From the IMG/VR virus record IMGVR_UViG_3300020428_000110, positions 1 through 21,850 of that record: a stretch of DNA of 21,850 nucleotides; one strand, given 5' to 3'. Below, piece after piece: positions 1 through 19,142 of this stretch. Source of the DNA: a virus. The first letter of the stretch is position 1, and every line of letters starts with the position of its first letter. Under the pieces are notes generated by a model that saw only the letters and a list, made by a program, of their open reading frames with translations, had not been told where the DNA came from and ran no database searches. A program made the translations under genes and the position numbers.

Positions 1-3000
1 TTTGTGCGTGTTACTAGAGATAGAAACGTATTTGAATTACTGCTTAAAGAAACAATTAATGGAATATATTTCTGCAAAATTCCTGTGGTGCAAAAGGAAA
101 ATGTTTGTATTATAGACAACACAACAACTTTCAATGATTTAATTTTTGATCCTGCAAGTGGTTATAAGCAAGATAGAATAAAAGTATTAGGATACTTGAC
201 TGAGTGGGACGGAAGCGGAGTATCTCCAGGCTTTATATTTGACGAAGCCAAAATACAAGAATGGGCACCATTCACAAAATATGCAATGAGTGATGTAGTA
301 AAACACAAACAGTTTTATTATACTGCAAATAAAAAATTAAAAGCAACAGAAAAATTTAATGAAGAAGAATGGCGTAGATTAGACAGTCGTCCTGAACCTT
401 CTTTGTATGCAAACTTTGATTACAAAGCAAATCAATTTGCTGATTTTTATGATTTAGATACAGACAACTTTGATACTGATCAACAGCGAATGGCCCAACA
501 CTTAATTGGCTATCAACCAAGAGAGTACTTAAGAAACATTATAAATGATGATGTTGCTCAATACAAATTTTATCAAGGATACATTAGGGAAAAAGGAACG
601 TCAAATGCATTGAGTAAATTGTTTGATGCTCTTGCAAGTGCAGACAAAGAAAGTGTTGATTTCTATGAGGAGTGGGGCATACGTAAAGGACAATATGGTG
701 CGTCGGATACTTTCGATGAAGTAGAATATGTGCTAGATGAATCTAAATTGAGATTGAATCCTCAACCAGTTGAATTAACAGATTTAGGCACAGGAGCAGA
801 AACAGATTTAGTATATAGAATACAATCAGGTGAAGTTTATTTAAAACCTGAAAATTATAACCACAATCCGTTTCCTATAAAATATGACAAAAATACGTAC
901 GTCAAAACTGCAGGCCCGGTTAATCCAATTGATATATCTGTAACAGTTGGCAGTTATGATGATTTGTTAACAAGCACATCTTTGACAACATTAAAAGACG
1001 GACAATATGTTTGGGTAGGAAACTACAACAATTCTTGGAATGTGTTTAGATATTCTAACACTAATCAAACAATTACAAGTGTCGTTGCAGGTTCAAATGG
1101 AATCACAGTTACAACTCTAAACAATGCTGAAATGACAGTTGGAGAAATTTTTATTGTAAATGCAAATGGTTCTGACTATGTGTTGAAATGTAAATCAGTA
1201 TCTTTGAATTCAATTGTGTGTGAACCTAAAACAGGATTCCAATCTATCACAACAGCAGTTGGATTTGTTAGACGACTTGTAACAAGTCGTGTGTCTGATA
1301 TTGCAGAAATCAATCAAAGAATTGTTGATCAAGGATTAAAAGATGACGAAAAATTCTGGGTAGATCAAAGTAATGATGGTAAATGGAAAATTGTAAACAA
1401 TAGATTTGTTTTCAAACAGCATGACACAGTAAGTTCAACAACGGATTCAGGTGATGTAAGTTTTGGACAGGTATTATCAGCAAACCAAAATAACACGATA
1501 CTATTAGTAGGACAACCAGATGAAAGTGATGGGCAGATTTATGTGTTCAGTAGAGGGACTGAAAGTGCTACATTAAAACTTATTCAAGTAATTCAATCAC
1601 CAACTGTAGATCCTATCTATCAGCAAGTTGATTTATTTGGTTCTAACAGTAAATTTGGTAAAGCAATGGAAATTTCACCAGAGGGTGATTACATTTTAGT
1701 TGGTGCTCCAGATGCCAGCAATCTAAAAACAGAATACAAAGGTCAATATGTTGATACACAAAATTATGCAACAGGAAATATTGTTCAGTACAAAAAACAA
1801 TTATGGAGAGCAACTAATCAAATTATTGGCGCAGATCCTTCTGTAGACTTCACAACTTTTGATGCCGCAGGTTTATACAACGAAGCAACAAATTCAGCAA
1901 TCACAAATCTTTTAATAGGTGATTATATTCACCCAGGCTCAACAACAAATCACCTTTTAGTTAGAGCAAGTGCTGATCAATACAACGGTACAAAAATTGG
2001 TGACAAATTGTACATGGATTATTTAAGTTTCACATCTGATTACAATCAAGACAGAAACAATTACACGAAAGATCCAAAAGGACCATTCGGACAGAACATT
2101 AGTCAATCAACACTTAAAAATGAACTGTTCCTATCTAATGCTGTACCAATAGTAGAAAAAATTGATGAAATATTAAAAGTTGATTTAACATTAAAAGACC
2201 CTGTTGTTGGTAATGTGTTGACAACAGATACAGCACAAGGAACAGTAGTGTATGTAAACAAAGTTGGAACAAAAACACTAATCTATTTGAAAGATGTGCA
2301 AGGAATATTTTCTACTTCAGATTCAATAAACTTTGGCAATTTAGAAATAGGAGCATATGACAGAGTTATTACAGAAGATTACAATCAACTAGGTGGTTGG
2401 TGGAGAGTAGATTTTCCAACAGCAGTATCTACAGACTTAGGTGCAGATACATCCAATCACCTAGTGATATATGATATTATAAGACAAAATATAACAAGAA
2501 CAGTTCAACATTTTAACAACTCATTGACGTATCCATGGACACCTATTACTCCACAACAAGGTCCAAGTTACACTGCAGAATTTGGAATGATATCTTATGC
2601 TCAGAGTTATTACATTGATCAAAGCACAAACAGTTGGCAGGCAAACGGTTCGCCAGTGAGTGTGTTAAGCAACAAGTATTTTATTAGAGCAGACGTTCCA
2701 ACAAGTTATCATGCAATGGGCAAACAGGCAGGTGATCAAATTAATGTTTGGTTCAACACTGTATCGAACAATAGATACACTTTCCCAGGATTGAATATTT
2801 CCAATGCTGACACAAATGGATTAAAAACAATCAATGATGTTTGGGAAGGATATGTTGATGTTGACTCTCAACCAGACAACAACGCAAACTTCTATGTGCC
2901 AACAGTTGGTGACGTTGTAAGATGCGATACAACTTACACAAACACAGCAGGATTTGGTGGAGAAGGTACCGTAGCGGCAATTCAATACACAGGATTGCAA

Positions 3001-6000
3001 AAATATAGATTATGGATTAAAAATTTATCAGGTAATGGTGTTCCATTTGTGCAAGGTTCCAATGCAGGGTTCAACGGAACAATCACTGTTGTAGGTACAC
3101 CAAACAGATTGTTAGGTAACATTGAACAAACAGCATTTACTGACAGTAATCAGCCTCCAGGAACACTTGGTAATTTACTAGTGTTTGAACACACAGCACC
3201 AATCAACTTCTCGGGCACAATTACAGAATACTTTGGAAGAGATATTGAATACTGGACTTGGGACGAACAAACATTAAACGGCATCAATGTTAATGCAAAC
3301 ATACCAAGTAGCACAAACAAAGATTGGATACAAGTTTACAATATTCCAGTAGGTGAAGGAGTGCAAAGTGCTTTCACTAACCAAGGTTGTTTCCTTGTGT
3401 ACAAAAAAGAAACTTCTGGACAATTTAGTTTTGCCGGAGGTTACAGCATACCTGATGCCGCAACTGGATTAAGATTTGGTTCACGTATTAAAATAAGAAC
3501 TGTGGGCAATGAAACTGTTGCTTATGTAGGAGCAGAAGGTGACAACACCACAAATTTACCTGGTAAAATTTATTTCATAGAAAACAGTGCTACAAAAAAT
3601 TGGTGGTTAGGTATTGATCCTCAATACAGAGGACCTTTTGAAAATACAGTGGCATACCAAACAGGTGAATTGGTTGTTTACAACAGTCAATTATACAAAG
3701 CAACAACAAATATGATTGCTGGTGTGTTCAATACAGCAAATTGGCAACTACAAAATACTCACACAGATTTCTTAGGCTATGTTCCAAATGATTCAGGAAT
3801 TGAATTAGAAAACGACAGTACTCTAGATCAAAACAACATGGTTCAGTTTGGAAATAGATTTGACATTGACACAAATGGAAACAATATAATTGCAAATGTA
3901 TTGTATTCAAATGACAGTCAAAAAATAATAGTTTACAGATTACATGACAATCATTACACATACAAACAAACAATAACTGCACCAGATGATTCAGGACCTA
4001 CAATTAATTTTGGTGCTGATATCAGTATCAGTGGCGATGGTGAATTAATTGCTATTGGATCTCCTCTAAAAGACTTCACTGATATAGATATGGGTGCTGT
4101 TTATGTTTACAAAAAAGCAACAAATGATTCAGGTTTGTATTCACTAACACAAACTTTAACAAGTCCTGCTAAAGAAGTAAGTGAAAACTTTGGATATGCT
4201 TTATCTTTCAGTGGAGACATACTTGCTGTAACAAGTTTAAAAGGTGACATGACAATTGACACAACTTTTGATGGTGGCACAACAAGTTTCGATAATGAAA
4301 TGACGTCATTTACAAAAATTGTACAAGACACAGGTACAATTCACATTTATGAAAAATTTGATAACACATTATTATATTCAGAAAAATTCACTTATGCAGA
4401 TACAAGCATACAGCAGTTTGGTTCTAATTTATTAGTAAATGTAAATCACGTTTATGTTGGAATGCCTAATCTACAATTAACAAATGAAGAAATAGGAACA
4501 ACTATTGATTTCCGTAGATCTCAAGATGCTAACAACTGGACTAGTGTACATGAAACTATTGGCGGTATTGAACAACCTGATCTTACAAAAATTAAAAGTG
4601 TATTCTTATACAACAAAAAAACAAAAAAAGTTTTAGCAAATCTAGATTATATTGATCCTATTTTCGGAAAAATTCCTGGACCAGCAGAAGAAGAAATTTT
4701 CTACAAAACAAAATATGATCCAGCATACTACAATCAATCAGGATCTACAAAGCAAGATGATTTAAATCATTGGGATAACAGTCAAGTAGGAAGATTATGG
4801 TGGGATATAAGCAAAGCACAATATTATTATCCGTATCAAAGTAATATAATTTTTAATAATGCTTATTGGAATAAATTGTTTCCAGGAGCAACAATTGACA
4901 TACATGAATGGACACAGTCAAAATACACACCTACTCAATGGAATACTTTAAGTGCAAGTACAGAGGGATTATCTTTAGGTATTACAGGTACAGTGTCAAA
5001 CACAAATAACTTTGTATTGAAAAAACAATATGACAAAGTTGCAGGTGTGTTTACAAATGTTTACTTTTATTGGGTAAAAGATAAAACATCTGTTCCGCAA
5101 ATTGAAGGTAGAATTTTATCTGCAAATGGCGTAGCAAAATTAATTAAAGATCCAAGATCTCAAGGTTACAAATATGTAACAATATTTGGTTCAAATAAAT
5201 TTGCAATAGTAAACTGTGGCGGATTAATAAGTGATAAAGATGCTGTAATAAACTTTAGATTGTTTAATACAACTACAAATAATGATATACATGAAGAGTA
5301 TGCCATAGTAACTGAAAATTTAGCGTCAAGCAAAATTCCAACAGACATTGAAACTGTTTGGTTTAATAGTTTAATTGGTTACGATGAATTAGAGAATCAA
5401 GTTCCAAATCCTGAAATAAGTGAAAAATTAAAATATGGTACATTGATGCAACCAAGACAAAGTTGGTTTAAAAACAAACAAGAGGCTTTAAAACAAGCAA
5501 TTGAAAGAATCAATAGTACATTAATTTCTAATTTAATTGTAGATGAAGTAGACTTATCTAGTTTAATTAAATCTGATCCAGCACCTTTAACTGCAACAGG
5601 CTTATATGATGTAACAGTTGACACTGAAAAAGATTTACAATTTGTTGGTGTTGGCACAGTAAAAACAGCAACGCTGGTTCCAACAATTGAAGACGGAAAA
5701 ATTAAATCTGTATTTGTTTCGGACGCAGGTAAAGGATATAAATTTAAACCAACAGTAACAATTAACACCACAACAGGATCAGGTGCAGTAATAGAATTAT
5801 CAATTGATGTAAATGGGTCAGTGTCAAATGCTGTGGTACGTGAACAAGGTAGCAATTACAAGTCCATCGACACAATTACAGTGCGTGACTTTAGTGCTTT
5901 AGTAAATGCTGACAGTACGGTGACAGGCAAATGGGCAATCTACTCTTACACAACAGAAGGTTGGACACGTACTAGAATACAAAGTTACAATGTTGGATTA

Positions 6001-9000
6001 TATTGGAATTATGCTGATTGGTATGATACAGGATACAGTGAACTAACTGCCATAGATAAAAAAGTTTCACAAACTTACGAACTAGATGCAGTAGAATGCA
6101 ATATTGGTGACATAGTAAAAATTGAAACTGTGGGCACAGGTGGTTGGTTACTATTAGAAAAAACAGATAATAAAGAAGATGTTGACTATACAGTAAATTA
6201 TAAAACTGTTGGAAGACAAAATGGAACAATTCAATTTAACACAAAATTATATGATTATGCTAATCAAAATATAGGTTTTGATTCGAACAGTTTTGATGTT
6301 CAACTGTATGACAGACAGCCTATTGAAGAAACAAGAATTATTTTACAAACTGTAAGAGATAGCATATTTGTTGAAGAATTAAAATTAGAATACAACAAAT
6401 TATTCTTTGCAAGTATTAGATATGCATTATCAGAAGATACTTTAAATGATTGGGTATTCAAAACAAGTTTTGTTACAGCACAACACAACGTAGGTGATCT
6501 AAAACAAAAAGTTACATTTAAAAACGATAATCTATCTAACTATGAAGATTATATTAAAGAAATTAAACCATACAAATCTAAAATTAGAGAATATGTAAGT
6601 TCTTATGATAAAATTGAACCTACTAATACTTCTTTAACTGATTTTGATTTACCGCCAAGATACATTAATGGTGTAATTACGCCTTCAAATATTAGAGTTG
6701 AAAATAATGCTTTAGTAAATGCAGACAATATAAACACTTATCCAAACAAACATTGGAAAGACAATGTAGGCTTTGCAGTCAAGTCTATTAACATAAAAGA
6801 AGGTGGCACTCTGTACAAAAATGCACCTACAATAGAAATAGTTGGAGGTGGCGGATCTGGAGCCACAGCAACAGCATATATTAAAAATGGAAAAATAAAC
6901 AGAATAAATGTTACAAATGGTGGATCAGGATATATTGGTGCTCCAGCAATAAACATTTTAGGATCAACTACAGGCACAGTTGCTCAAGCCAATGCTGTGT
7001 TAGGGGACAGTTTTGTTAGATCAACTCACATTGGTGTAAAATTTGACAGAACAACTGGAGACCTTTTACTTGCTAACTTAACAAGAACTGAAACATTCTC
7101 AGGAAACGCAAGTCAATTAAAATTTAAATTGAAATGGCCAATGGATTTACGTACAACAACGGTCAAAGTAAAAGTAAACAATCAATTAAAATTAAGAAGT
7201 GAATATACTTTTAATAATGAGTTAGATGAAACAAAATCATACACAAGAAATAGTGGATATGTTTCATTCACTTTGCCTCCGGCAAACAATGCAAATATAT
7301 CTGTGGAATATTTGATTGATCAAGATGTATTGCAAACACAAGATAGAGTAAATTTATATTACACACCAACTGCTGGAATGCCAGGCAAAGAACTTGCACA
7401 GGTAATTGAAGGTATAGACTATGGTGGTGTAGAAGTTCGTAGCATAGGATTTGAAAATAAATCAGGTTGGGACAACCAACCTTTTATGGATGGTGAATGG
7501 GACACTTATGATGAAAGTTATGAAGATGAAGTTTTCTATCTAGATCAAAGCACATTATCTTTAACACTTTCTAAAACACTTGAAGCAAATGTACAATACA
7601 ATGTATACAGAAACGGTAAAAGAGTTGATGATCCTAATTTTGGAACAGCACAACAAACAAATGTCAATGCTGTTATGGAAACAATTATCGGCGATGGTTC
7701 TACTAAAACTGTAGACATAAGTGCTGTTGAAACAGGCAATGACACAATCATAATCAGAAAATCAACAAGCGATGGTTCATTCTTACCTGATCCGGAAGAA
7801 GTTGACACACTTTTACAAGGTGGTGATTTGGCATACTCTACAGCACAAGGTTTAAGTGCTGAAGATATAAATGTTGATGGAGACGGCTTTGTAACTCCAA
7901 CATCATCTCATGGTCCAGAAGAATTTGTACCTGGACAAGTGTTAGATACATTAGACATACAAGTTTATGACAGAGGTTCAAACACAGGCAGTAAAATTAA
8001 CAGTTACAATTACATAGGTGATGGTACAACAACAGAATTTGCCTACACTGATTATCCGCAAAGTGCTGACGCTGTATTTGTTTCAGTAAACAATATTTTA
8101 TACAACAGTAATTTATTCACAGTTGATTATCAAAATAAAAAAATAATATTCAACAGTGCACCTACAAATGGCAATAAAATTAATTTTATTACTATGGGCA
8201 ATAACGGTGAATCTGTTTTAGATGTAGACACATTTACTGGTGACGGTTCAACAGTTGATTTTGTATCAAGAGCAAAATACACAGCAGGCAAAATTTCAGT
8301 ATTTGTTAGAGTAAATGGTCAAAGAACAACATACCAAGTTTTAGAAACAGACAGTTCTTTTGCTGTACCAAATAGAGTAGCAATAAGATTTAACACAGCG
8401 CCGGCAATAGACGCTGTAATTAGTATATGTGTATATGAAAGTGCAAGTCAATCCTTTAGTGAAGTTACTCAAAATGAATTTACTGGTGATGGAAGCACAG
8501 CAACATATCAACTATCTCCTACACCTTTTGCACAAAAACCTTTAACAACAAATGTAATTGTTAAGGTTGGAGACAATGTATTAAGAAGTGGTTGGTACAA
8601 ACAATTTAAAGTTTCAGTATTAAGAGAATACGAAATTGAAAACTGGCAAATAGTTCCGGGCAGTATAGGAACATCAGATGTAAGAGCATTTTTAAATGAT
8701 GTTGAAATGACAAGTTCACAATACAGATGGAATCCAGGAAATTCAAGTGTAACATTAGAATCAGGTGTAGGTGTTGTTGGCGATATTTTAGATGTGTTTA
8801 TAGACAATGGACAATACAGTGTATCAGATGCTGGTGTATTAACTTTAACGACTGCACCAACGCAGAATACAAAAGTAACTGCTTACCAGTTTAGTAAACA
8901 CGATATAGCAGATATAGAAAGAGAACAGGCAGATGTAATTGCAAGATTATCAATTACAGTAAACAGTGATGACTATTACCAATACAATCAATTAACAAAT

Positions 9001-9894
9001 GGTGTAATTTATCTACGTAAGCCGGCAGTTGATGCTCAATATGTTTGGGTTTCATTGAATGGCGAATGGTTGGCACCTAGTGTAGACTACACTGTATCAA
9101 ATGATCAAATGAGAGTATTAATTTCAAGAACTGTAAGTCAAAATGATCAAATAGATGTCATGCATTTCTCTGCTCCAAGTTTCATTGGAAAATTTGCATA
9201 CAGACAGTTCAAAGACATGATGAATAGAACGCACTTTAAACGCATAGGAAATGATAGACAATACTTCCTTGCAAATACATTGTACTGGTATGATAAAGAA
9301 ATTGTTTTAAAAGACGCAACAGGAATCACAGAGCCAAATATTAATGCTAGTTTACCTGGCATTATATTCATAGACGGTGAAAGAATTGAGTATTGGATTA
9401 AAGCAGGTAACAAATTACAACAATTAAGAAGAGGTACATTTGGTACAGGAGTACCAACTCAACACTTTGCTGACACTGAAGTTCATGATCAAAGTGGATT
9501 CCAGACAGTTCCTTACAAAGATGAGTTTGTATCAGAAGTGTACACAGGCGCAGATGTGTCAAATAATCAATTAACTATCTCGTTCACTCCAACAAATGTG
9601 AATCAATTTGAATTATTTGTTGGCGGTAAGAGACTGCGTAAAAACAGTATTTCACAGTATAATCCAGCAAACGGACAGGACAGTCCTGAAGCAGATGACA
9701 CTGTGTCAGCAGAATTCACAGTAGATGGTGTAAATCCTGTGATTACGTTTAACAATACACCAGCCACAAATGCCAAAATTGTGGTCATACGTAAACAAGG
9801 TAAAATTTGGCAAGAAGGCACAGATCCACTGAGTCAGACAGATAATGACATCGCAAGATTCATACGTCAAAAAGAAGTGGCTCCGCCGCAATAA
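1..9894 (+). CDS. Giant mosaic tail/virion structural protein, 5'-truncated by the window edge
   Basis: Probably a tail, tail-fibre or baseplate-associated adhesin of a T4-like marine phage. The frame is open from base 1 (TTT then GTG at 4). The first residues look like the middle of a domain and no ribosome-binding site can be seen, so the true start is probably upstream. Numbering from the GTG: three CBM5/12-like aromatic motifs lie near 87-123, 580-606 and 1210-1249 (pattern Y..G..V.Y....Y.A....W). A block starting YQPREYLRNIINDD at about 170 resembles a stretch conserved in large cyanophage structural proteins, from memory. FG-GAP-like propeller blades lie near 551-576 (FGKAMEISPEGDYILVGAP), 1336-1360 and 1396-1415. 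Glycine-rich GSGY modules lie near 1909-1953 and 2267-2320. GDGST-type beta repeats run from about 2563 to 2840. A FIDGERIEYW...LRRGTFGTG block sits near 3122-3165. No transmembrane segment is evident. The structural role is fairly sure; the exact virion position is not. Confidence 0.85.
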   Translation, partial: FVRVTRDRNVFELLLKETINGIYFCKIPVVQKENVCIIDNTTTFNDLIFDPASGYKQDRIKVLGYLTEWDGSGVSPGFIFDEAKIQEWAPFTKYAMSDVVKHKQFYYTANKKLKATEKFNEEEWRRLDSRPEPSLYANFDYKANQFADFYDLDTDNFDTDQQRMAQHLIGYQPREYLRNIINDDVAQYKFYQGYIREKGTSNALSKLFDALASADKESVDFYEEWGIRKGQYGASDTFDEVEYVLDESKLRLNPQPVELTDLGTGAETDLVYRIQSGEVYLKPENYNHNPFPIKYDKNTYVKTAGPVNPIDISVTVGSYDDLLTSTSLTTLKDGQYVWVGNYNNSWNVFRYSNTNQTITSVVAGSNGITVTTLNNAEMTVGEIFIVNANGSDYVLKCKSVSLNSIVCEPKTGFQSITTAVGFVRRLVTSRVSDIAEINQRIVDQGLKDDEKFWVDQSNDGKWKIVNNRFVFKQHDTVSSTTDSGDVSFGQVLSANQNNTILLVGQPDESDGQIYVFSRGTESATLKLIQVIQSPTVDPIYQQVDLFGSNSKFGKAMEISPEGDYILVGAPDASNLKTEYKGQYVDTQNYATGNIVQYKKQLWRATNQIIGADPSVDFTTFDAAGLYNEATNSAITNLLIGDYIHPGSTTNHLLVRASADQYNGTKIGDKLYMDYLSFTSDYNQDRNNYTKDPKGPFGQNISQSTLKNELFLSNAVPIVEKIDEILKVDLTLKDPVVGNVLTTDTAQGTVVYVNKVGTKTLIYLKDVQGIFSTSDSINFGNLEIGAYDRVITEDYNQLGGWWRVDFPTAVSTDLGADTSNHLVIYDIIRQNITRTVQHFNNSLTYPWTPITPQQGPSYTAEFGMISYAQSYYIDQSTNSWQANGSPVSVLSNKYFIRADVPTSYHAMGKQAGDQINVWFNTVSNNRYTFPGLNISNADTNGLKTINDVWEGYVDVDSQPDNNANFYVPTVGDVVRCDTTYTNTAGFGGEGTVAAIQYTGLQKYRLWIKNLSGNGVPFVQGSNAGFNGTITVVGTPNRLLGNIEQTAFTDSNQPPGTLGNLLVFEHTAPINFSGTITEYFGRDIEYWTWDEQTLNGINVNANIPSSTNKDWIQVYNIPVGEGVQSAFTNQGCFLVYKKETSGQFSFAGGYSIPDAATGLRFGSRIKIRTVGNETVAYVGAEGDNTTNLPGKIYFIENSATKNWWLGIDPQYRGPFENTVAYQTGELVVYNSQLYKATTNMIAGVFNTANWQLQNTHTDFLGYVPNDSGIELENDSTLDQNNMVQFGNRFDIDTNGNNIIANVLYSNDSQKIIVYRLHDNHYTYKQTITAPDDSGPTINFGADISISGDGELIAIGSPLKDFTDIDMGAVYVYKKATNDSGLYSLTQTLTSPAKEVSENFGYALSFSGDILAVTSLKGDMTIDTTFDGGTTSFDNEMTSFTKIVQDTGTIHIYEKFDNTLLYSEKFTYADTSIQQFGSNLLVNVNHVYVGMPNLQLTNEEIGTTIDFRRSQDANNWTSVHETIGGIEQPDLTKIKSVFLYNKKTKKVLANLDYIDPIFGKIPGPAEEEIFYKTKYDPAYYNQSGSTKQDDLNHWDNSQVGRLWWDISKAQYYYPYQSNIIFNNAYWNKLFPGATIDIHEWTQSKYTPTQWNTLSASTEGLSLGITGTVSNTNNFVLKKQYDKVAGVFTNVYFYWVKDKTSVPQIEGRILSANGVAKLIKDPRSQGYKYVTIFGSNKFAIVNCGGLISDKDAVINFRLFNTTTNNDIHEEYAIVTENLASSKIPTDIETVWFNSLIGYDELENQVPNPEISEKLKYGTLMQPRQSWFKNKQEALKQAIERINSTLISNLIVDEVDLSSLIKSDPAPLTATGLYDVTVDTEKDLQFVGVGTVKTATLVPTIEDGKIKSVFVSDAGKGYKFKPTVTINTTTGSGAVIELSIDVNGSVSNAVVREQGSNYKSIDTITVRDFSALVNADSTVTGKWAIYSYTTEGWTRTRIQSYNVGLYWNYADWYDTGYSELTAIDKKVSQTYELDAVECNIGDIVKIETVGTGGWLLLEKTDNKEDVDYTVNYKTVGRQNGTIQFNTKLYDYANQNIGFDSNSFDVQLYDRQPIEETRIILQTVRDSIFVEELKLEYNKLFFASIRYALSEDTLNDWVFKTSFVTAQHNVGDLKQKVTFKNDNLSNYEDYIKEIKPYKSKIREYVSSYDKIEPTNTSLTDFDLPPRYINGVITPSNIRVENNALVNADNINTYPNKHWKDNVGFAVKSINIKEGGTLYKNAPTIEIVGGGGSGATATAYIKNGKINRINVTNGGSGYIGAPAINILGSTTGTVAQANAVLGDSFVRSTHIGVKFDRTTGDLLLANLTRTETFSGNASQLKFKLKWPMDLRTTTVKVKVNNQLKLRSEYTFNNELDETKSYTRNSGYVSFTLPPANNANISVEYLIDQDVLQTQDRVNLYYTPTAGMPGKELAQVIEGIDYGGVEVRSIGFENKSGWDNQPFMDGEWDTYDESYEDEVFYLDQSTLSLTLSKTLEANVQYNVYRNGKRVDDPNFGTAQQTNVNAVMETIIGDGSTKTVDISAVETGNDTIIIRKSTSDGSFLPDPEEVDTLLQGGDLAYSTAQGLSAEDINVDGDGFVTPTSSHGPEEFVPGQVLDTLDIQVYDRGSNTGSKINSYNYIGDGTTTEFAYTDYPQSADAVFVSVNNILYNSNLFTVDYQNKKIIFNSAPTNGNKINFITMGNNGESVLDVDTFTGDGSTVDFVSRAKYTAGKISVFVRVNGQRTTYQVLETDSSFAVPNRVAIRFNTAPAIDAVISICVYESASQSFSEVTQNEFTGDGSTATYQLSPTPFAQKPLTTNVIVKVGDNVLRSGWYKQFKVSVLREYEIENWQIVPGSIGTSDVRAFLNDVEMTSSQYRWNPGNSSVTLESGVGVVGDILDVFIDNGQYSVSDAGVLTLTTAPTQNTKVTAYQFSKHDIADIEREQADVIARLSITVNSDDYYQYNQLTNGVIYLRKPAVDAQYVWVSLNGEWLAPSVDYTVSNDQMRVLISRTVSQNDQIDVMHFSAPSFIGKFAYRQFKDMMNRTHFKRIGNDRQYFLANTLYWYDKEIVLKDATGITEPNINASLPGIIFIDGERIEYWIKAGNKLQQLRRGTFGTGVPTQHFADTEVHDQSGFQTVPYKDEFVSEVYTGADVSNNQLTISFTPTNVNQFELFVGGKRLRKNSISQYNPANGQDSPEADDTVSAEFTVDGVNPVITFNNTPATNAKIVVIRKQGKIWQEGTDPLSQTDNDIARFIRQKEVAPPQ

Positions 9895-9917: not shown

Positions 9918-10529
9918 ATGAGTAAATTTAATGAAAACAACGGAGTTTTAATACAAGGTCATATTAAGATACATGACCCTGAATCAGGCGCTGTTTTCGT
10001 CAATAAACGCAATGCAATTCATTATGAGAACATGAGTGTTGCTTTAGCGGAGAGTGTTGCTAATCAAGGTCAAGGTTTTATTAATTCAATGGCGTTTGGT
10101 AACGGCGGAACAAGTGTTGATCCAACAGGAATTATTACATATTTGACTCCTAACAGTACTGGCACAAATGCAAGTCTGTATAATCAAACATACACCAAAG
10201 TTGTTGATGATAGAAGTGTTACAAACTTAGATCCTCAAAGAAACAAAATAGAAACTAGACACGTAAACGGAACAAATTACACAGATGTTCTTGTAACTTG
10301 TCTTTTAGATTACGGTGAGCCAAACGGACAAGATGCAGTTGATCAAGCATCGCAGGCAAATAGTTTATATGTGTTTGATGAACTAGGACTAGTAAGTTAT
10401 TCGCCAAGTGGCACAGGCAAACTTTTAACACACGTAGTATTTCATCCTGTACAAAAAAGTTTAAACAGATTAGTGCAAATAGATTACACTGTTAGAGTAC
10501 AAAGTTTGACAGGTTTTAACGAGGGGTAA
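9918..10529 (+). CDS. Conserved virion structural protein of marine T4-like phages
   Basis: A 203-residue protein, probably a tail or baseplate component. I see no enzymatic motif, signal peptide or membrane segment. The N-terminal part (VLIQGHIKIHDPESG, then VFVNKRNAIHYENMS, residues about 10-40) and the later FGNGGTSVDPTGIITYL stretch (near 56-72) resemble a small structural protein that sits beside tail-fibre genes in cyanophage genomes; that resemblance is from memory. The start is the ATG at 9918, preceded by GGAG at 9909-9912 with a 5-base spacer. The gene lies 23 bases after the giant protein and 3 bases before the next gene, whose GAGGGG ribosome-binding site is inside its own last codons, so translation of the two is probably coupled. 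Its partners are most likely the flanking tail proteins. Exact virion location is unknown. Confidence 0.7.
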   Translation: MSKFNENNGVLIQGHIKIHDPESGAVFVNKRNAIHYENMSVALAESVANQGQGFINSMAFGNGGTSVDPTGIITYLTPNSTGTNASLYNQTYTKVVDDRSVTNLDPQRNKIETRHVNGTNYTDVLVTCLLDYGEPNGQDAVDQASQANSLYVFDELGLVSYSPSGTGKLLTHVVFHPVQKSLNRLVQIDYTVRVQSLTGFNEG

Positions 10530-10532
10530 TAG

Positions 10533-12563
10533 ATGTCATATACCATAAGTTTTTCTGATGCAGTAAACAAAGGTACTATCACTGTCGAAGACAACACAGT
10601 GAACAGTCAAACTAGTTTACAGTTTCCTGGAAAAAACACAACATCATATGGTACAATTATAGCAGAGAATTTTCTACACGTATTAGAAAATTTTGCTAAC
10701 AGTACGGCTCCATTAAGACCAATACAAGGTCAAACTTGGTTTGATACAACAGCAGGCGTAAACCAATTAAAAATTTACGATGGTACAACATGGGTAGCAT
10801 CAGGCGGACTTAAAAAAGCAATCAATCAACCAAGTGCTTCAGAAAGTATTACAGGTGATTTATGGGTTGATACAGATCAGCAACAATTATATCTATTCAC
10901 AGGATCAGGCTGGATTCTAGTAGGTCCACAATACAGTTCAGGATTAGTTACAGGTGCAACACCTACAACAATCAAAGGAACTGATGATTTAGATTACACA
11001 ATTATAAAATTAGAAGTTGCGGCTCAAACAGCGGCAATAATTGCAACAGATACATTCACTCCAAAAATTACAATACCTGGTTTTTCACAACTGCGTCCAG
11101 GAATTAATTTAAGTATAGCAAATATAAAAGGTGACGGAGTTGGTAAATTTTATGGCACAGCCGAAAAAGCAGATGCTCTTGTTGTTAGCGGCTCAACAGT
11201 AGCGGCAGGAAACTTTTTAAGAGCAGATACAACTTCATTAACAGATTTTCCAATTAAAGTAAAAACAGATGATGGTATAGAAGTAGGTGCCGCAGGATCA
11301 TTTAAAATGTTTGTTGAACAACAAGCAGGTATAATTCAATTAGGCACACTAGATGAAGAAATAGATTTCAGATTAAACAATCAAGGTACAACAACCACTG
11401 TAATGAGATTAAGTTCTGCAGGACAAGTTGGTGTAATGAAAACAAATCCAACTGCTGTGTTAGACGTAGCAGGCACTTTATCAGCAGACGGTATTGTTAC
11501 AGCAAATGATACAACTGATGCAACTAATATTGGTTCAGGATCACTTGTAGTAAAAGGTGGTTTAGGTGTTGCTAAAAAATTATTTGTTGGAAATGATACA
11601 AGTATTGCAGGTAATTTAACTGCAAACAACATATCACCTTCTACAAACAATATACATAACCTAGGTTCTACAAATAATCAATACGGCAATGTTTATGCAA
11701 ACACTTTTGTAGGAAATTTGACAGGAAACGTAAGTGGAACAGTATCAGGTACAGCAGGATCATCTAACAAATTAACTCAAGCAACAACATTTAATTTGAC
11801 TGGTGATGTCACAGCAACAAGTTTTACATTTGATGGACAAACAGGTGGAACATCAAAAACTTTTAATACAAGTATAAGCAATTCATTTATTGGTAATCAA
11901 ACATTAACAACAACAAGTCAAGTAAGTGATGAATTAATAATTAATAGAACACAAGGTACAGCAGGAATTTTCAAAACAACTGTTGGTAACATTGTTAGTA
12001 CTATTCCAACACCACCAGTAGGTTCAATAACATTATTTGCTGGTGCTACTTCTCCTGCTAATTGGTTAATGTGCGATGGTGCTGAAATTAGTAGAGCAGT
12101 ATACAGCACTCTTTATGGTATAATAGGCACACAATACGGAACTCCAACAAGTTCTGCGGTGTTTAAATTACCTGACTTACGTGGAAGATTCCCATTAGGT
12201 AAAGACAATATGTCTAACCCAGGTTTAGGACAAGGTTCAGCGGATAGAGTTACAGCGGTAGCGGCAGATAATTTAGGTCAAGGTGCAGGTGATGAGAAGA
12301 AAACAATCACAAAAGAAAACCTACCAGATCACGAACACAATATGAGAGCAAACAATGGTGATCAATTCTTTGGTTCAAGAATGATAGCAGGTGCATCAAC
12401 AGATAATGAAGTAACAACTAGAGATGGACCTGATTTAACAAATACACTAGGTGCTCAACAATTACCTAATTCAGGTGGAATCAGCGGCACAATAGGACAA
12501 CAAATGGATGTAATGAATCCTTACATGACATTAAACTATATAATTTATACTGGAGGCATTTAA
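10533..12563 (+). CDS. Tail-fibre-like protein with C-terminal phage tail collar domain
   Basis: A 676-residue structural protein, likely a receptor-binding or fibre component. Residues about 1-132 form the N-terminal module shared with the next two genes, with two WxDT units (GQTWFDTTAG near 66-75 and GDLWVDTDQQQLY near 108-120), each ending in an aromatic-glycine segment. The middle holds fibre-type sequence: a VLDVAGTL segment, then NLGSTNNQYGNVYANTFVG. The C-terminal part matches the phage tail collar domain seen in microcystin-dependent-protein and short-tail-fibre families: PVGSITLFAG and NWLMCDG from about 496, FKLPDLRGRFPLGKD, LPDHEHN at about 597-603, and the terminal MNPYMTLNYIIYTGG. 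The start ATG follows GAGGGG at 10521-10526. The stop overlaps the next ATG by one base (TAATG). Domain assignment is firm; the equivalent T4 gene is not assigned. Confidence 0.85.
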   Translation: MSYTISFSDAVNKGTITVEDNTVNSQTSLQFPGKNTTSYGTIIAENFLHVLENFANSTAPLRPIQGQTWFDTTAGVNQLKIYDGTTWVASGGLKKAINQPSASESITGDLWVDTDQQQLYLFTGSGWILVGPQYSSGLVTGATPTTIKGTDDLDYTIIKLEVAAQTAAIIATDTFTPKITIPGFSQLRPGINLSIANIKGDGVGKFYGTAEKADALVVSGSTVAAGNFLRADTTSLTDFPIKVKTDDGIEVGAAGSFKMFVEQQAGIIQLGTLDEEIDFRLNNQGTTTTVMRLSSAGQVGVMKTNPTAVLDVAGTLSADGIVTANDTTDATNIGSGSLVVKGGLGVAKKLFVGNDTSIAGNLTANNISPSTNNIHNLGSTNNQYGNVYANTFVGNLTGNVSGTVSGTAGSSNKLTQATTFNLTGDVTATSFTFDGQTGGTSKTFNTSISNSFIGNQTLTTTSQVSDELIINRTQGTAGIFKTTVGNIVSTIPTPPVGSITLFAGATSPANWLMCDGAEISRAVYSTLYGIIGTQYGTPTSSAVFKLPDLRGRFPLGKDNMSNPGLGQGSADRVTAVAADNLGQGAGDEKKTITKENLPDHEHNMRANNGDQFFGSRMIAGASTDNEVTTRDGPDLTNTLGAQQLPNSGGISGTIGQQMDVMNPYMTLNYIIYTGGI

Positions 12564-14749
12564 TGAGTTATAAACTAAACAAAACAGATGGTAGTTTACT
12601 TGTTGATCTAGTTGATGGTCAATTAGATACTACTTCCAGTGACTTAACACTTATAGGAAGAAACTATTCAGGTTTTGGTGAAGTTTTAAATGAAAACTTT
12701 ATACAACTTTTAGAAAACTTTTCAAACGCAACAGCACCTATTAATCCGTTAAGAGGTCAATTATGGTTTGATACAACTGAAAATAGATTAAAAGTATACA
12801 ACGGATCGGCTTTTGTTGCTTCAGGCGGTACAACAGTTTCTAACACACAACCAAACATGGTTGCAGGTGATATTTGGATCAACAACGAAACAAGTCAACT
12901 GTATTTCTTTGATGGTACAAATTTAAAATTAGTTGGTCCAGTATATTCTAACGCACAAGGAACTTCAGGTTTTGAAGTTGTAAGTTTATTAGATACACAA
13001 AACGTTACACAACACGTTATTAAAATGTTTGTTGCAGGCAGTTTAGTAGGCGTTCATGCAAATGCAGTATTCACTCCAGTGGCAACAGGTAGAATTACAG
13101 AACTTGTATCAAGTTCTAATCCAAATGGTGAAATCAAAAAAGGTTTTAACACTGTAGGCACAGATTACAAATACATTGGAACAGCAACAGTTGCCGAAGC
13201 ACTTGTTGATGGTAATGGAACAATTAGAAATGCTGACAGTTATCTTGTGTCCGATGGCGATGACACAACTGTAGGTGCATTAACAATACAAAACAATGCA
13301 GGTTTAACAGTAGGTCTTAATAATAACACAAAATTACAATTTACAAACAATGCATTCACTATTGCCAATCAATTAACAGGACAAGATGTAGAAATTAAAG
13401 TAAGAAATCCAGCAGAATTGTCTGCATTGAAAGTAGATGCAACAAACAGTAGAGTTGGAATTTACAAAGTATCACCTACAAAAACTTTAGACGTAGGTGG
13501 AGATGTCAATATTGATGGTAATCTTGTTGTTGCAGGTACAACAACATCCATAGATGTACAAGATTTAAGAGTAGAAGACAAAAATATTGAACTTGCAATA
13601 GACAGCAACGGTAATGTAGGTAATGATGCCGCAGTAGATGGTGGTGGTATTATATTAAAATCAAGTCAAGGTGACAAATCATTTGTATGGCAAGATGGTA
13701 CAGACAGTTGGACAAGTTCTGAATTTATAGATTTAGCGGCAACTAAAGGAATAAAAATTAACACAAACACAGTTTTAACAGAAACGGCATTAGGTGCCAG
13801 TGTAACTACTGCACCTGGTTTAACAATACTTGGAACTTTAACACAATTAGTTGTAGATGATGTAACAGTTGATGGTTCAAGTGTGTTTACTTCGGCAAAC
13901 AGTTTACAATTAGGCAGTAATGGTCCAATCACAGTATTGAACAGTAACAGAATAACAGGTGTAGGTTCACCAGTAAATGATTCAGATGTTGCAACAAAAG
14001 GTTACACAGATGGATCAACTGTAATAGGTTTAGATATGAACGTGACTGGATTGAATATGGCTTCGCCTTACAATGATGTAAGAGACGAATTAGAAAAATT
14101 ATTCCCAGCAGGCGGTTACACATTGGCAAGTCCTAATAGACCAACAAATGCTAATTTTTCTAACAGTGTAATACCAGCAAGAGGACAAGGTGCATTGGCA
14201 AGAGTAAGAGCAGTGAATTATGGTTCAGGTGGTGGTTTCAGTATTCCAAGCATACCTTTTGCAGGTTTGAAAAACTTTACACCAGTTGACCAAACAATTA
14301 CAACTCAACAAAGAACAATACAAACTGTTACAACGTACAGTCAAGATAACAGTTTAGGTACAACAACAAAAATTACTTGTTCTGCATCACATTACTACGA
14401 AGCAGGTCAAGCCGTTGTATTAACAGGCACAACTTTCAGTGGTGGTATTGGAACAATAGACGGAAACTACACGGTACAGTCGGCTGAATTTTCAGCAGAA
14501 TCACCTAACTTTGTGTCATTAACAATAAACTATGACTCACAAGCGTCAGGATTAAATGGTGCCAACTATAATGCGGCAAGTGGTACTATTGAAAGAACAC
14601 CTGTGGTAGGAAACGCAAACAAACAGGTAGTAGAAGACTTCTCAGACCCAACAGGAGTAACTGGACAGGTTACTTTTGCTCCAACAACAACGATTTTACA
14701 GTTTGGAGTGAACAATGGAGTGTGGGAGTTTGACAGAACAATACCGTAA
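12563..14749 (+). CDS. Tail-fibre-like structural protein, second of three paralogues
   Basis: A 728-residue paralogue of the preceding protein. The N-terminus repeats the shared module: an SYKLNKTDGSLLVDLVDG opening, ENFIQLLENFSNATAP, GQLWFDTTENRLKVYNG, then GDIWINNETSQLYFFDG before VGPVYS. The central region has fibre-type motifs, LDVGGDVNIDGNLVVAGTT followed by VEDKNIELA, and at about 464-483 the stretch ITGVGSPVNDSDVATKGYTD, a pattern common in phage tail-fibre shafts. Unlike its upstream neighbour it has no collar domain. The roughly 240 C-terminal residues are Ser/Thr/Asn-rich and not recognised, ending in LQFGVNNGVWEFDRTIP. The ATG overlaps the upstream stop by one base and has GGAGG at 12552-12556 with a 6-base spacer, so it is translationally coupled. 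No enzymatic motif seen. A fibre or tail accessory role is inferred from domain architecture and position. Confidence 0.8.
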   Translation: MSYKLNKTDGSLLVDLVDGQLDTTSSDLTLIGRNYSGFGEVLNENFIQLLENFSNATAPINPLRGQLWFDTTENRLKVYNGSAFVASGGTTVSNTQPNMVAGDIWINNETSQLYFFDGTNLKLVGPVYSNAQGTSGFEVVSLLDTQNVTQHVIKMFVAGSLVGVHANAVFTPVATGRITELVSSSNPNGEIKKGFNTVGTDYKYIGTATVAEALVDGNGTIRNADSYLVSDGDDTTVGALTIQNNAGLTVGLNNNTKLQFTNNAFTIANQLTGQDVEIKVRNPAELSALKVDATNSRVGIYKVSPTKTLDVGGDVNIDGNLVVAGTTTSIDVQDLRVEDKNIELAIDSNGNVGNDAAVDGGGIILKSSQGDKSFVWQDGTDSWTSSEFIDLAATKGIKINTNTVLTETALGASVTTAPGLTILGTLTQLVVDDVTVDGSSVFTSANSLQLGSNGPITVLNSNRITGVGSPVNDSDVATKGYTDGSTVIGLDMNVTGLNMASPYNDVRDELEKLFPAGGYTLASPNRPTNANFSNSVIPARGQGALARVRAVNYGSGGGFSIPSIPFAGLKNFTPVDQTITTQQRTIQTVTTYSQDNSLGTTTKITCSASHYYEAGQAVVLTGTTFSGGIGTIDGNYTVQSAEFSAESPNFVSLTINYDSQASGLNGANYNAASGTIERTPVVGNANKQVVEDFSDPTGVTGQVTFAPTTTILQFGVNNGVWEFDRTIP

Positions 14750-14779: not shown

Positions 14780-16249
14780 ATGGCATATATTGTAAACAAA
14801 TTTGATGGAACTTTAATAGCAACTGTGCAAGATGGCACAGTGGATCAAACAACTAATCTAAGATTCATAGGTAAAAACTATGCTGGATATGGTGAAATAC
14901 AGAACGAAAACTTCTTACACCTATTAGAAAACTTTGCAAGTGGTAGTCAACCAAGCAAACCACTCAGTGGTCAGATATGGTTTGACACATCAAACAGCAA
15001 ATTGAAGTTCTATGATGGTACAAAATTCAGAACAACTGGTGGGGCAGAAGTAAGCACATCCGCTCCAGGTGGTTTAACAACTGGTGACTTTTGGTGGGAT
15101 TCAGCAAACAGTCAATTATATGCTTGGGACGGTACAAGTTTTGTGCTTGTTGGTCCTCAAGGTACAGGTTCTTCAGTAACACAGTTTACAACAAGACAAA
15201 TAAAAGATTCATTAAATGCAAATCAATTAATTATTGAAGGTAAAGTAAACAACACAACTGTTGTTCTTTTCAGCGGAACTGAATTTACAATTGGTACAGC
15301 AGATCCAAACAACACAATCACAGGATTTGATGTTGTTAAAAAAGGTTTAACACTTGTAAACACTCAGGCGGCAACAAGTGGTATCACAACAACTGACCAC
15401 AGATATTGGGGAACATCATCTAACTCAGATAGATTAGGTGGCTTTCTTGCTTCTGATTACATTAGATCAGGTTCAAGTGCTTTTGCAAGTATTGTAAGAT
15501 TCGGTGATGCAGGATTCACAGTTGGTGATTCAAATGATTTAAAAGTTTCAATTGAAAATGGCAATGAAGGTGCTATTGCAAATGAAATAGGAACTAAAAT
15601 TTCTTTAAAAGTAAATTCAAATAACGTTGTTACAAACATTGCAGAAGTAAATGCAGATGGAATAATGCCAGGCACAGGTAATAAAAATATTGGTGCTTCA
15701 AATGATCAATGGTATGAAGTTCATGCAAATTACTTTAAAGGATTGGCGGACAATGCATCAGGTATATACTTCGGTAACCAAACTTATTTAGGTGCAACAA
15801 CAGCCGTTAACAACACAGTGGCATTAAGAGATGGTACAGGTAAAATTACAGCAAATATTTTTGACGGTGTGGCAACATCAGCCAACTATGCTGACTTGGC
15901 AGAGATATATTCTACAGACAAAGAATATGAAGTGGGTACAGTAATGGCAATTGGTGGTGATGCAGAAACAACTGAATATGATAAAACAAAAAGTGCTTTT
16001 GGTGTAATATCCGAAAAACCAGGATTTTTGATGAACAAAGATGCTGAAGGTCAAGCGATTGCGTTTGTTGGTCGTGTACCAGTAAAAGTAAATGGTGCTG
16101 TACAAAAAGGCGACAAAGTTTTTGCTGATGATGGTGGTGTTGCAACTACTACCAAAAAAGGAGAATTAATTGGTTTTGCACTGGCAACTGATACAAATGA
16201 ATCCACAAAACTTGTTGAGGTAGCACTAAGACTAATAAATAATTCGTAG
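14780..16249 (+). CDS. Tail-fibre-like structural protein with C-terminal YADLAE-type domain, third paralogue
   Basis: A 489-residue protein, the third tandem copy of the shared N-terminal module: opening IVNKFDGTLIATVQDGTVD, GKNYAGYGEIQNENFLHLLE, GQIWFDTSNSKLKFYDG, and GDFWWDSANSQLYAWDG before VGPQ. A NIGASNDQWYEVHANYFKG segment follows, comparable to the NLGSTNNQYGNVYAN segment of the first copy. From about 365 to the end lies a separate domain starting NYADLAEIYSTDKEYEVGTV (Y370 to E375 is the core), continuing through GVISEKPGFLMN, GRVPVKVNGAVQKGDKVF and ending near LRLINNS. I recall similar C-terminal segments at the ends of phage and bacterial fibre-like proteins; some annotations link comparable regions to autoproteolytic peptidase G2, but I cannot confirm that here. 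Start ATG at 14780 after AAGGG (14771-14775). Confidence 0.8.
   Translation: MAYIVNKFDGTLIATVQDGTVDQTTNLRFIGKNYAGYGEIQNENFLHLLENFASGSQPSKPLSGQIWFDTSNSKLKFYDGTKFRTTGGAEVSTSAPGGLTTGDFWWDSANSQLYAWDGTSFVLVGPQGTGSSVTQFTTRQIKDSLNANQLIIEGKVNNTTVVLFSGTEFTIGTADPNNTITGFDVVKKGLTLVNTQAATSGITTTDHRYWGTSSNSDRLGGFLASDYIRSGSSAFASIVRFGDAGFTVGDSNDLKVSIENGNEGAIANEIGTKISLKVNSNNVVTNIAEVNADGIMPGTGNKNIGASNDQWYEVHANYFKGLADNASGIYFGNQTYLGATTAVNNTVALRDGTGKITANIFDGVATSANYADLAEIYSTDKEYEVGTVMAIGGDAETTEYDKTKSAFGVISEKPGFLMNKDAEGQAIAFVGRVPVKVNGAVQKGDKVFADDGGVATTTKKGELIGFALATDTNESTKLVEVALRLINNS
16234..16241 (+). promoter_or_regulatory. Candidate T4-like late promoter (AATAAATA)
   Basis: AATAAATA lies within the last codons of the 489-residue gene and 20 bases upstream of the next ATG at 16262. 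The spacing and core match the motifs at 9890 and 14754. The downstream leader holds AGGA at 16248-16251, a plausible though distant ribosome-binding site. Confidence 0.5.
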
Positions 16250-17527: not shown

Positions 17528-18328
17528 ATGTCAAAAGGAATTGTATTATTTGCCCATAATAATGATACCATTAATTATGTGGCACAGGCAGTATTTTGCT
17601 GTAAGAAAATTAAAGAACATCTAAAACTCCCAGTAACTTTAATTACATCTGAAAATGTTAAAGAAGATATATTTGACAACATTATTAAAATAAAAAATCC
17701 AAATACAAAACAAACTAGAAATATGTATGACGGAGAAATCCGTAAAAACGTTTTGTGGAGCAATCAATCTAGATCAACGGTGTTTGATTTGACTCCATAC
17801 GAAGAAACCATAGTGATGGACACAGATTATATTGTGGAAAACGACACACTGCTTAAAGCATTTCAAACGAAGGAAGACTTTTTAATAAACTATGATGCAC
17901 AACACATAGATTTTGAATCAACAATGACCAGTGAAATGAAATATATTAGTGATACTGGTATAAAGATGTGTTGGGCCACAGTATTTTATTTTAAAAAAGT
18001 TGGACGTGTAAAAAATTTGTTTACTTTAATAGATCACGTCAAACAACACTGGAGTTTTTATAGGTTTCGGTATCAATTAAAAGAACTAACATATAGAAAT
18101 GATTTTGCTTTTAGTATCGCGATACATATGATGAACGGATTTACACACAGTGATTGGCCCAATAAATTGCCATGTAAATTGTTTTACATCACAGATAGAG
18201 ATAAAATTATTTCATACAAAGACAGTACTTGGAGTTTTGAACTACAAGGTGGATTAAAATGTTCTATCAAAGACTTAAACATTCATGTAATGAATAAAAT
18301 AGGATTAGAAAAAATAATAAATGACTAG
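17528..18328 (+). CDS. GT-A-like glycosyltransferase (first of pair A)
   Basis: A 266-residue predicted cytoplasmic glycosyltransferase. It would transfer a sugar from a nucleotide-sugar donor, with a metal held by its DxD motif. The N-terminus GIVLFAHNNDTINYVAQAVF suggests the first nucleotide-binding strand and helix. The strand EETIVMDTDYIV carries D98-T99-D100, the likely DxD. Later come WATVFYFKK (near 150-160) and NDFAFSIAIHMMNG (near 194-207), where the acceptor or catalytic region would fall. The arrangement is like GT8-type retaining enzymes, but I cannot fix the family. Residues around DxD, the FYFKK segment and the DFAFSIAI segment align with the next gene, so the two are paralogues. 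It overlaps that gene by 8 bases. The substrate is unknown; candidates are virion proteins, host surface glycans or modified DNA bases. Confidence 0.65.
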   Translation: MSKGIVLFAHNNDTINYVAQAVFCCKKIKEHLKLPVTLITSENVKEDIFDNIIKIKNPNTKQTRNMYDGEIRKNVLWSNQSRSTVFDLTPYEETIVMDTDYIVENDTLLKAFQTKEDFLINYDAQHIDFESTMTSEMKYISDTGIKMCWATVFYFKKVGRVKNLFTLIDHVKQHWSFYRFRYQLKELTYRNDFAFSIAIHMMNGFTHSDWPNKLPCKLFYITDRDKIISYKDSTWSFELQGGLKCSIKDLNIHVMNKIGLEKIIND

Positions 18329-19142
18329 AGGTTTTTTAATTTTTGTACAAGACAACGGAGATGTTGATTATCTTAAACTGGCGACTGCGTGTGCTATGAG
18401 CATTAAAAAATTTATGCCCAAAGAACAGGTATGCCTAGTTACAGATATATTTGTGCCTGACAACTTTAAACAATATTTTGACATAGTAAAAGATATACCA
18501 GGAGATGATTTGGCTAAAAATTCAAAATGGAAAGTACAAAACAGATGTAAAATATATGATGCTACTCCATTTGATGAAACTATTGTTTTAGATGCAGATA
18601 TGTTAGTATTAGAAGATATTACACATTGGTGGAAAGCATTATCTAATTATGAATTATATTACACTGATAAAGTAAAAACTTTCAGAAATGAATTAGTTAC
18701 AGACACGTTTTATAGAAAAGTATTTGAGGCAAACAATTTGCCTAATGTGTATTGTGGTATGTACTATTTCAAACGCACAGATAACAATCATAAGTTTTTT
18801 GAATTACTGAAAGACGTAGTAAAAAATTACAGTTGGTACAGCGAAAAGTACACTTCTAAAAATACGCAAAGTTGGGTTAGTATGGATGTCAGCACTGCTA
18901 TTGCAATTAAAATACAAAATATTGCTCATCAGGTTTTTTCTAAAAAGAACTTTTTAACTTTTACACATATGAAACCTAACATACAAAAGTGGTTAGCACA
19001 AAAGGATAGTTGGTTAGAAGTAATTGATTACAATTTTAACAATTCAAATGAACTAATGGTAGGCAACTTTTTACAAAAAGGTATATTTCACTATGTAGAG
19101 AAAAGTTTTGTTACAGACAAAATGATGGAGCAGTTACAATGA
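18321..19142 (+). CDS. GT-A-like glycosyltransferase (second of pair A)
   Basis: A 273-residue paralogue of the preceding protein, again predicted to be a soluble, metal-dependent glycosyltransferase. Opening RGFLIFVQDNGDVDYLKLAT matches its neighbour's RGIVL/KGIVL-type first strand. The strand DETIVLDADMLVLEDITHWW contains D91-A92-D93, the likely DxD. YCGMYYFKR (near 146-154) and MDVSTAIAIKIQN (near 191-203) align with the neighbour. The start ATG at 18321 overlaps the upstream stop by 8 bases and has only a distant AGGA, so coupling is likely. The ATGA overlap with the next gene (4 bases) has GGAG at 19127-19130. Two related but distinct active-site neighbourhoods suggest sequential additions to the same glycan or a heterodimer; neither is proven. 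GT8-like family membership is the best guess. Confidence 0.65.
   Translation: MTRGFLIFVQDNGDVDYLKLATACAMSIKKFMPKEQVCLVTDIFVPDNFKQYFDIVKDIPGDDLAKNSKWKVQNRCKIYDATPFDETIVLDADMLVLEDITHWWKALSNYELYYTDKVKTFRNELVTDTFYRKVFEANNLPNVYCGMYYFKRTDNNHKFFELLKDVVKNYSWYSEKYTSKNTQSWVSMDVSTAIAIKIQNIAHQVFSKKNFLTFTHMKPNIQKWLAQKDSWLEVIDYNFNNSNELMVGNFLQKGIFHYVEKSFVTDKMMEQLQ

Follow-up and report, generated by a model that had tools for sequence, protein, structure and literature searches.

A giant phage protein in the probable gp7/BW3 slot of the baseplate genes, with a predicted FG-GAP beta-propeller in a variable cassette slot

In this study, we describe a viral fragment of 21,850 bases, the whole of which is the window analyzed here, that opens inside a giant ORF for a virion structural protein and continues with a small adjoining gene and three tail-fibre-like genes (Table 1). 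The complete gene encodes 4,896-4,897 aa in the close relatives L007, L009, and L010 and 4,370-5,051 aa in remoter ones, so that roughly 1,600 residues of the window's giant lie outside the fragment, whose start corresponds to about residue 1,601 of the L010 giant. In a PHROGs profile search the giant matches phrog_10938, a family of virion structural proteins (E 7.5e-117), and the record of its homologue in phage PA5oct carries the note ESI-MS/MS. The conserved core has at least 581 relatives among at least 599 matched stretches of viral contigs; Pfam and PHROG scans with it returned its own family and otherwise weak matches only, which we take as chance. The baseplate wedge family phrog_2885 matches the L010 giant (E 4e-13), with the C-terminal scaffold as the best stretch. 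A PDB search with the alignment of this scaffold yielded one match, as did a first single-sequence PDB search, and both were set aside as chance. The main alignment of giants was entered by 12 of the 23 distinct giants, that of the window included; alignments A7 and A8 hold 60 of 69 usable relatives and 71 of 80, respectively, near-duplicates having been removed by hand. In the C-terminal part of the giant (window ~7020-9894), segments of the TGDGST type are repeated and a sub-threshold match to DUF2460 was seen.

Table 1. Coordinates of the features described in the 21,850-base window.
Feature	Position (nt)	Strand	Remarks
Giant virion structural ORF	1..9894	+	3297 aa; no start of its own, 5' end beyond the fragment
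CBM1, CBM5/12-like motif	259..381	+	aa 87-127; profile match E 8e-4
Conserved core, YxG..xxKGT...EEW motif	400..807	+	aa 134-269; alignment A5; possible equivalent of the wedge core of gp7
Predicted FG-GAP beta-propeller	1405..4542	+	aa 469-1514; AlphaFold2 model, integrin match, Pfam FG-GAP_2
CBM2, first half	1723..1836	+	aa 575-612; blade 2 loop after the GAP strand
Insert inside CBM2	1846..3300	+	~485 aa, aa ~616-1100; one putative domain twice (aa ~651-774, ~893-1019)
CBM2, second half	3301..3351	+	aa 1101-1117, with the terminal DW strand at aa 1107-1117; blade 2 continues from about aa 1127
CBM3	3610..3753	+	aa 1204-1251; loop between blades 3 and 4
Conserved C-terminal scaffold	4621..6765	+	aa 1541-2255; glycine-rich repeats within, aa ~1884-1969
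GGSGATA-type glycine-rich repeats	6766..7020	+	aa 2256-2340; phrog_460 E 2.9e-17
203-aa protein adjoining the giant	9918..10529	+	phrog_11259
Three tail-fibre-like genes	10533-12563, 12563-14749, 14780-16249	+	one N-terminal domain common to all

The initial annotation of this DNA had called the ORF a tail protein, and this is borne out by the relatives, in which the gene lies among baseplate genes; the window itself begins inside the giant, and gene order was seen in relatives only. In the L010 record the giant is preceded, in this order, by genes for a hub/spike protein, a PAAR protein, gp25, and a gp6 of 1,180 aa. A gp25 gene was present in all nine records searched, above cut-off in eight of them; its coordinates place it ahead of the giant, and both are on one strand. 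Moreover, the giant adjoins a gene annotated as baseplate wedge in PA5oct, RaK2, Atu_ph07, and Phosso; the neighbouring gene takes its name from a CBM5/12 domain in the Vibrio phage and has no name in SCTP-2. The same slot is taken by gp7 in T4, by a gp7 of 5,195 aa in P-SSM2, and by a 4,067-aa "baseplate wedge initiator" in SynMITS9220M01. Judged by the gene order of its relatives, the giant thus sits directly after gp6, in the slot of T4 gp7/BW3. According to the Leiman review, gp7 is a monomer at the periphery of the baseplate, with six copies in each tail, and Sullivan et al. (2010) count it among the very divergent structural proteins.

Homology of the giant to gp7 itself is only suggestive at the sequence level. 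A whole-profile comparison of the giant with T4-type gp7 found nothing. When the core was compared with the gp7 core by hhalign, the stretch with the KGT motif aligned at E 0.002-0.003, with a probability of only 10-13%; against the whole N-terminal scaffold the values were E 0.02-0.04 and 1-2%, yet the top match still fell at the core. The real score was reached by 2 of 150 controls with the cyanophage profile and by 0 of 150 with the mixed profile. The gp7 profile was made from 63 of 80 loci plus three rows of A6, and another core comparison used the five of seven gp7 cores that could be located. Because the core match is weak and the whole-profile comparison gave no match, we write "in the gp7 slot" rather than "gp7". 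The blade profile found no match at E < 0.1 in five gp7 proteins. The gp7 alignment (T4 gp7 = L037:7061-10159) contains SxDxGxTW-like motifs, which resemble the Asp-box repeats of propellers, and from its sequence T4 gp7 may itself hold a propeller-like part. The gene in the gp7 slot of pelagiphage HTVC008M (L043:33435-36485) is annotated as head closure Hc2, probably on account of shared glycine-rich repeats; the same label, phrog_460, also matches the window.

Several FG-GAP-like repeats had been reported in the giant, and the three strings quoted in support of them were located at aa 552-570, 1337-1355, and 1396-1412. Pfam FG-GAP_2 (PF14312) scores 41 bits in the window giant, above the curated cut-off of 23, as well as 38.9 bits in the L010 copy and 22.1 bits, slightly under the cut-off, in the L022 copy. 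Scanned singly against Pfam, three of six blade fragments match FG-GAP_2 (E 1e-7, 0.0012, and 0.061) and three match nothing. With a profile of blade 5, further blades were matched (E 3e-6, 0.004, and 0.04); the last of these values is not above chance, since the best shuffles reach 0.011 and 0.024. The blade count is seven, from FG starts at aa 488, 552, 1159, 1283, 1337, 1397, and 1473 in the sequence rather than from the model; integrin heads also have seven blades. The remark that acidic DxDxDG calcium loops are not obvious holds, as a pattern search of the window giant found none and a looser pattern gave only two matches, DIDTNG in blade 4 (aa 1288) and, further on, DINVDG (aa 2622). The FG-GAP and CBM-like motifs are confined to nt 259-4467; downstream of nt 4467 in the window ORF, blade and CBM profiles had no match at E < 0.1. 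Matches to blade and CBM profiles were found in 56 of 56 relatives, a partly circular count, since A7, the source of the profiles, contains most of these relatives, and one that leaves out 43 of 99 ORFs whose flank patterns were unmatched, including four cultured giants.

The structure prediction that the initial annotation had put forward as a check on a beta-propeller in the FG-GAP regions agrees with it. An AlphaFold2 model of aa 380-1575, made with 61 sequences, is all-beta with a mean pLDDT of 84.1 and a pTM of 0.68. Its best match by VIA-align is integrin alpha-M (Z 31.0, 354 residues, 3.2 A, 16% identity), in an alignment that spans model residues 90-1135, that is, aa 469-1514. Integrin heads fill all of the first thirteen rows; WD40 propellers reach Z 28.5 (309 residues in the best chain), and specific kinship with integrins is therefore not proven. 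Foldseek with the same model listed many integrins and ranked an Elongator subunit first, at TM-scores that were low throughout, as is expected for so long a model. From this model we predict a beta-propeller in the giant with good confidence. Viral structure matches include proteins named for FG-GAP repeats in an uncultured Caudovirales phage and in giant viruses; hence the occurrence of FG-GAP propellers in viruses is by itself no novelty. In the literature searched, outside which most subscription papers fell, we found no paper that describes an FG-GAP propeller within the baseplate wedge of a phage.

The claim of at least three CBM5/12-like motifs is upheld by their profiles. The CBM2 profile finds CBM3 (aa 1208-1237, E 3e-9), the CBM3 profile finds CBM2 (aa 578-607, E 6e-9), and these profiles, both derived from A7, also find the first copy at aa 87-113 (E 8e-4), against chance matches no better than E 0.022 among 20 shuffles and E 0.018 for the reversed protein. 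Pfam CBM5/12 (PF02839) stays below its cut-off of 26.2 bits, with 19.3 bits for the whole protein, 14.8 and 18.9 bits for the CBM2 and CBM3 fragments, and no match for CBM1. Residue 1243, in CBM3, is F or W in 58 of 61 sequences. In integrins, loops placed like those that hold CBM2 and CBM3 here lie on the ligand-binding face. The solved sequences closest to CBM3 in a PDB search are two phage tail proteins, at weak E-values of 0.006-0.009; coronavirus spike rows in that search (E 0.027 and worse) were taken as chance. In Milano gp124 the stretch matched by CBM3 falls within the N-terminal tail-binding module, residues 1-175, as given in the Milano paper. Residues ~80-130, which include CBM1, are the best-predicted part of a poor model of aa 1-345 (pLDDT 55), the listed fold matches of which are about 40-100 columns long and mostly of CBM type. 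Foldseek matches of CBM1 mix chitinase domains with baseplate proteins of phages and injection systems, at probabilities of up to 1.00 and with no E-value below 0.069, from this model of pLDDT 55. A fourth CBM-like copy lies outside the window in the N-terminal part of the giant (L010:905-6754, A1 profile positions 1424-1461); its profile matches chitin deacetylase and chitinase sequences (E 0.002-0.03), and Pfam CBM5/12 gives it 19.6 bits, under the cut-off. Searched against the PDB, the alignment of the N-terminal scaffold matched only CBM-bearing chitin-active proteins, through one stretch.

CBM2 is split by an insert: the chain passes from the GAP strand of blade 2 into CBM2, through an insert of ~485 residues, and back by the DW strand into blade 2. 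The two halves of the insert are alike (hhalign probability 98.3%, E 2e-14; the score of 99 compares with no more than 21.7 among 100 shuffles), and by this measure the insert is a tandem duplication of a putative beta domain. The stretch measured across CBM2 is 513-658 residues long in 59 of 61 aligned sequences; in the other two, L102 (59 residues) and L123 (60 residues), the insert is missing and the stretch holds an intact CBM-like module (CBM3 profile E 8e-5 and 3e-10). At residue 1109, in the second half of CBM2 that aligns to this intact module, 51 of the 61 sequences have W and 10 have Y. To judge from these alignments, CBM2 may act as a mount that carries the insert. The initial annotation had proposed a propeller head with glycan-binding arms, and had missed both the nested inserts of the propeller and its setting in a scaffold of baseplate-wedge type. 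Its propeller stands as a prediction. The arms are only partly supported by the sequences: the aromatic residue at aa 1243 and the match of the fourth copy to chitin-active proteins speak for them, and the splitting of CBM2 in 59 of 61 sequences and the nearness of CBM3 to phage tail proteins speak against them.

The propeller occupies a variable cassette slot between two conserved parts of the giant. By alignment, the block from the core to the C-terminal scaffold is ~1,170 aa long in the window and its near relatives, 1,019 aa in L026, 943 aa in L022, 416 aa in SCTP-2, and 270 aa in PA5oct, and is shortest in Vibrio phage 2.275.O (178 aa) and RaK2 (118 aa). In Atu_ph07 and Phosso, ~1,515 residues separate the two parts that match the window, where the corresponding distance is 1,241; Pfam found no FG-GAP in these two giants up to E 1, the blade profile reached E 0.093 at best in that of Atu_ph07, and their slot stretch (giants L210:3979-17328 and L211:3697-17364) resembles glycine-rich repeats in parts. 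The block also diverges in sequence. Median identities by one measure are 72% in the core, 60% just after the propeller, 29-42% in the blades, and 28% in the insert; these figures favour the core, since the relatives were fetched by their core match, and the stretches beside it reach only 45-49%. We therefore rely on the less biased comparison with L013, L017, and L018, in which the N-terminal and C-terminal scaffolds are 47-50% and 49-51% identical, respectively, and the propeller block 33-34%. Such fast divergence can also mean relaxed constraint.

We propose that the giant is a baseplate protein of the gp7/BW3 slot with a host-contacting propeller cassette, a reading that in our judgment has an even chance of being right as a whole. 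The ORF would make up two thirds, on the 3' side, of a giant baseplate protein, which would occupy the position of gp7/BW3 within a contractile tail like that of jumbo phages. Its core and C-terminal scaffold would help to build the baseplate, probably together with gp6 and presumably in six copies. The cassette slot would hold, in this clade, a seven-bladed integrin-alpha-like propeller whose loops bear CBM5/12-like modules, and one of these modules would carry a duplicated beta domain. Most likely the propeller is held out on the baseplate, where it would touch the host surface, be it protein or glycan, in adsorption or landing, and the CBM-like modules may serve in part as mounts and in part as glycan contacts. 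Gene order in relatives, the predicted fold, the inserts, and the variable slot are results of the analysis; the copy number, the exposure of the propeller, its contact with a receptor, and a bound target are inferred. Receptor-binding proteins attach to BW3 in T4, A511, and the R-pyocin, and are predicted to do so in many other phages, according to the Milano paper, where the spikes of Milano itself are placed at the sheath-baseplate junction and not at BW3.

It is possible, although rather doubtful, that the propeller and its CBM-like modules are protein-protein parts that dock fibres or brace neighbouring wedges, and make no contact with the host. This would agree with the phage tail proteins being the closest solved sequences to CBM3, with the matches of CBM1 to injection-system and phage baseplate structures besides chitinases, and with a CBM2 that is mount-like for its insert. 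However, the genes behind the giant argue otherwise. The 203-aa protein has relatives in Vibrio phage 2.275.O, RaK2, PA5oct, and SCTP-2 (phmmer E 3e-46 to 2e-32), and the N-terminal domain of the fibre-like proteins occurs in the same four phages (the comparison took 4 window queries against 11 hand-picked proteins of these phages). Since both are present in RaK2 and Vibrio phage 2.275.O, whose giants have no propeller, fibre docking seems not to need one, and the idea that it does was set aside. Moreover, the propeller block diverges more than the scaffold on either side of it. The third fibre-like protein (14780-16249) matches Peptidase_G2 (IMC autoproteolytic domain, E 6.6e-8) at its C terminus. 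Behind the fibres, at window 17528-21848, lies a run of genes that look glycosyltransferase-like by eye, with a gene for a radical SAM protein after them (Pfam E 2.5e-13). None of the genes in this run matched a glycosyltransferase family named as such in Pfam or PHROG, and one matches phrog_1903 (function unknown). Going by their sequences, these genes possibly serve in the modification of the virion or the fibres.

A less probable alternative, and in our opinion an unlikely one, is that mucus, chitin, particles, or other free or environmental glycans are what the propeller block binds, so that it keeps the phage near its hosts without binding a host receptor. The possible CBM5/12-like fold with its chitin-binding relatives would fit such a role, as would the aromatic residue kept in CBM3, against which stand the CBM matches of the window, which are under the Pfam cut-off or absent, and the splitting of CBM2 by its insert. 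That the FG-GAP strings are a chance resemblance and the propeller nonexistent is highly improbable: half of the blade fragments have no Pfam match on their own and one blade-profile match is no better than shuffles, but the Pfam score of the protein is above the cut-off and the confident all-beta model is headed by thirteen integrin heads.

Host-surface recognition by the propeller is thus our best inference, though an unproven one. The presence of fibre parts in phages that seem to attach them without a propeller, the divergence of the block, and the exchangeability of the slot content all favour a surface-exposed recognition role, and the lack of a propeller in the slot of RaK2 and of the Vibrio phage counts against it. 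For every homologue, binding of a receptor or a sugar is putative. Tentatively, and with more doubt than the proposal as a whole, we suggest that an integrin-alpha-like adhesion head is built into the wedge itself, that the slot takes up whole recognition modules, and that the loops mount CBM-like holders for exchangeable tips; adsorption and the switch of the baseplate could then be coupled in one polypeptide. Receptor binding by contractile tails is generally ascribed to separate fibres and spikes, and a wedge protein with a swappable head of its own would, if true, be a second and little-studied place for host range. The family is large, with hundreds of core relatives, and its cultured members with other slot contents allow tests.

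Several known systems share parts of this arrangement. The propeller of Staphylococcus phage phi11 reportedly has a receptor-binding role, and it belongs to a host-recognition device, as we propose here; the phi11 protein is, however, that of a siphophage, is likened to ours by description and not by structure, and is presented in a text without the term "FG-GAP". The propeller of integrin alpha subunits, our best structural match, has FG-GAP repeats and the fold predicted here, whereas that of the window lacks DxDxDG, keeps a single DIDTNG in blade 4, and has putative CBM-like and duplicated beta domains as inserts within a phage scaffold. The chitin-binding CBM5/12 modules resemble the window motifs in the pattern of YxA and a terminal W and, tentatively, in their small beta fold; the motifs differ in falling below the Pfam cut-off, in that their binding is putative, and in the large insert that splits CBM2. 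T4-type gp7/BW3 proteins lie in the same slot after gp6, those of cyanophages being giants too, and the glycine-rich repeats of the window giant recur in a PHROG named baseplate wedge subunit; gp7 differs in that none of the five tested matched the blade profile, and homology of the cores is only suggestive. A further system comprises the phrog_10938 family and the giants of RaK2, 121Q, PA5oct, Atu_ph07, and Phosso: the slot holds 118-416 aa in RaK2, Vibrio phage 2.275.O, PA5oct, and SCTP-2, or, in Atu_ph07 and Phosso, some 1,500 aa without a Pfam match to FG-GAP, in place of the propeller, and the core and C-terminal scaffold are alike in sequence to those of the window.
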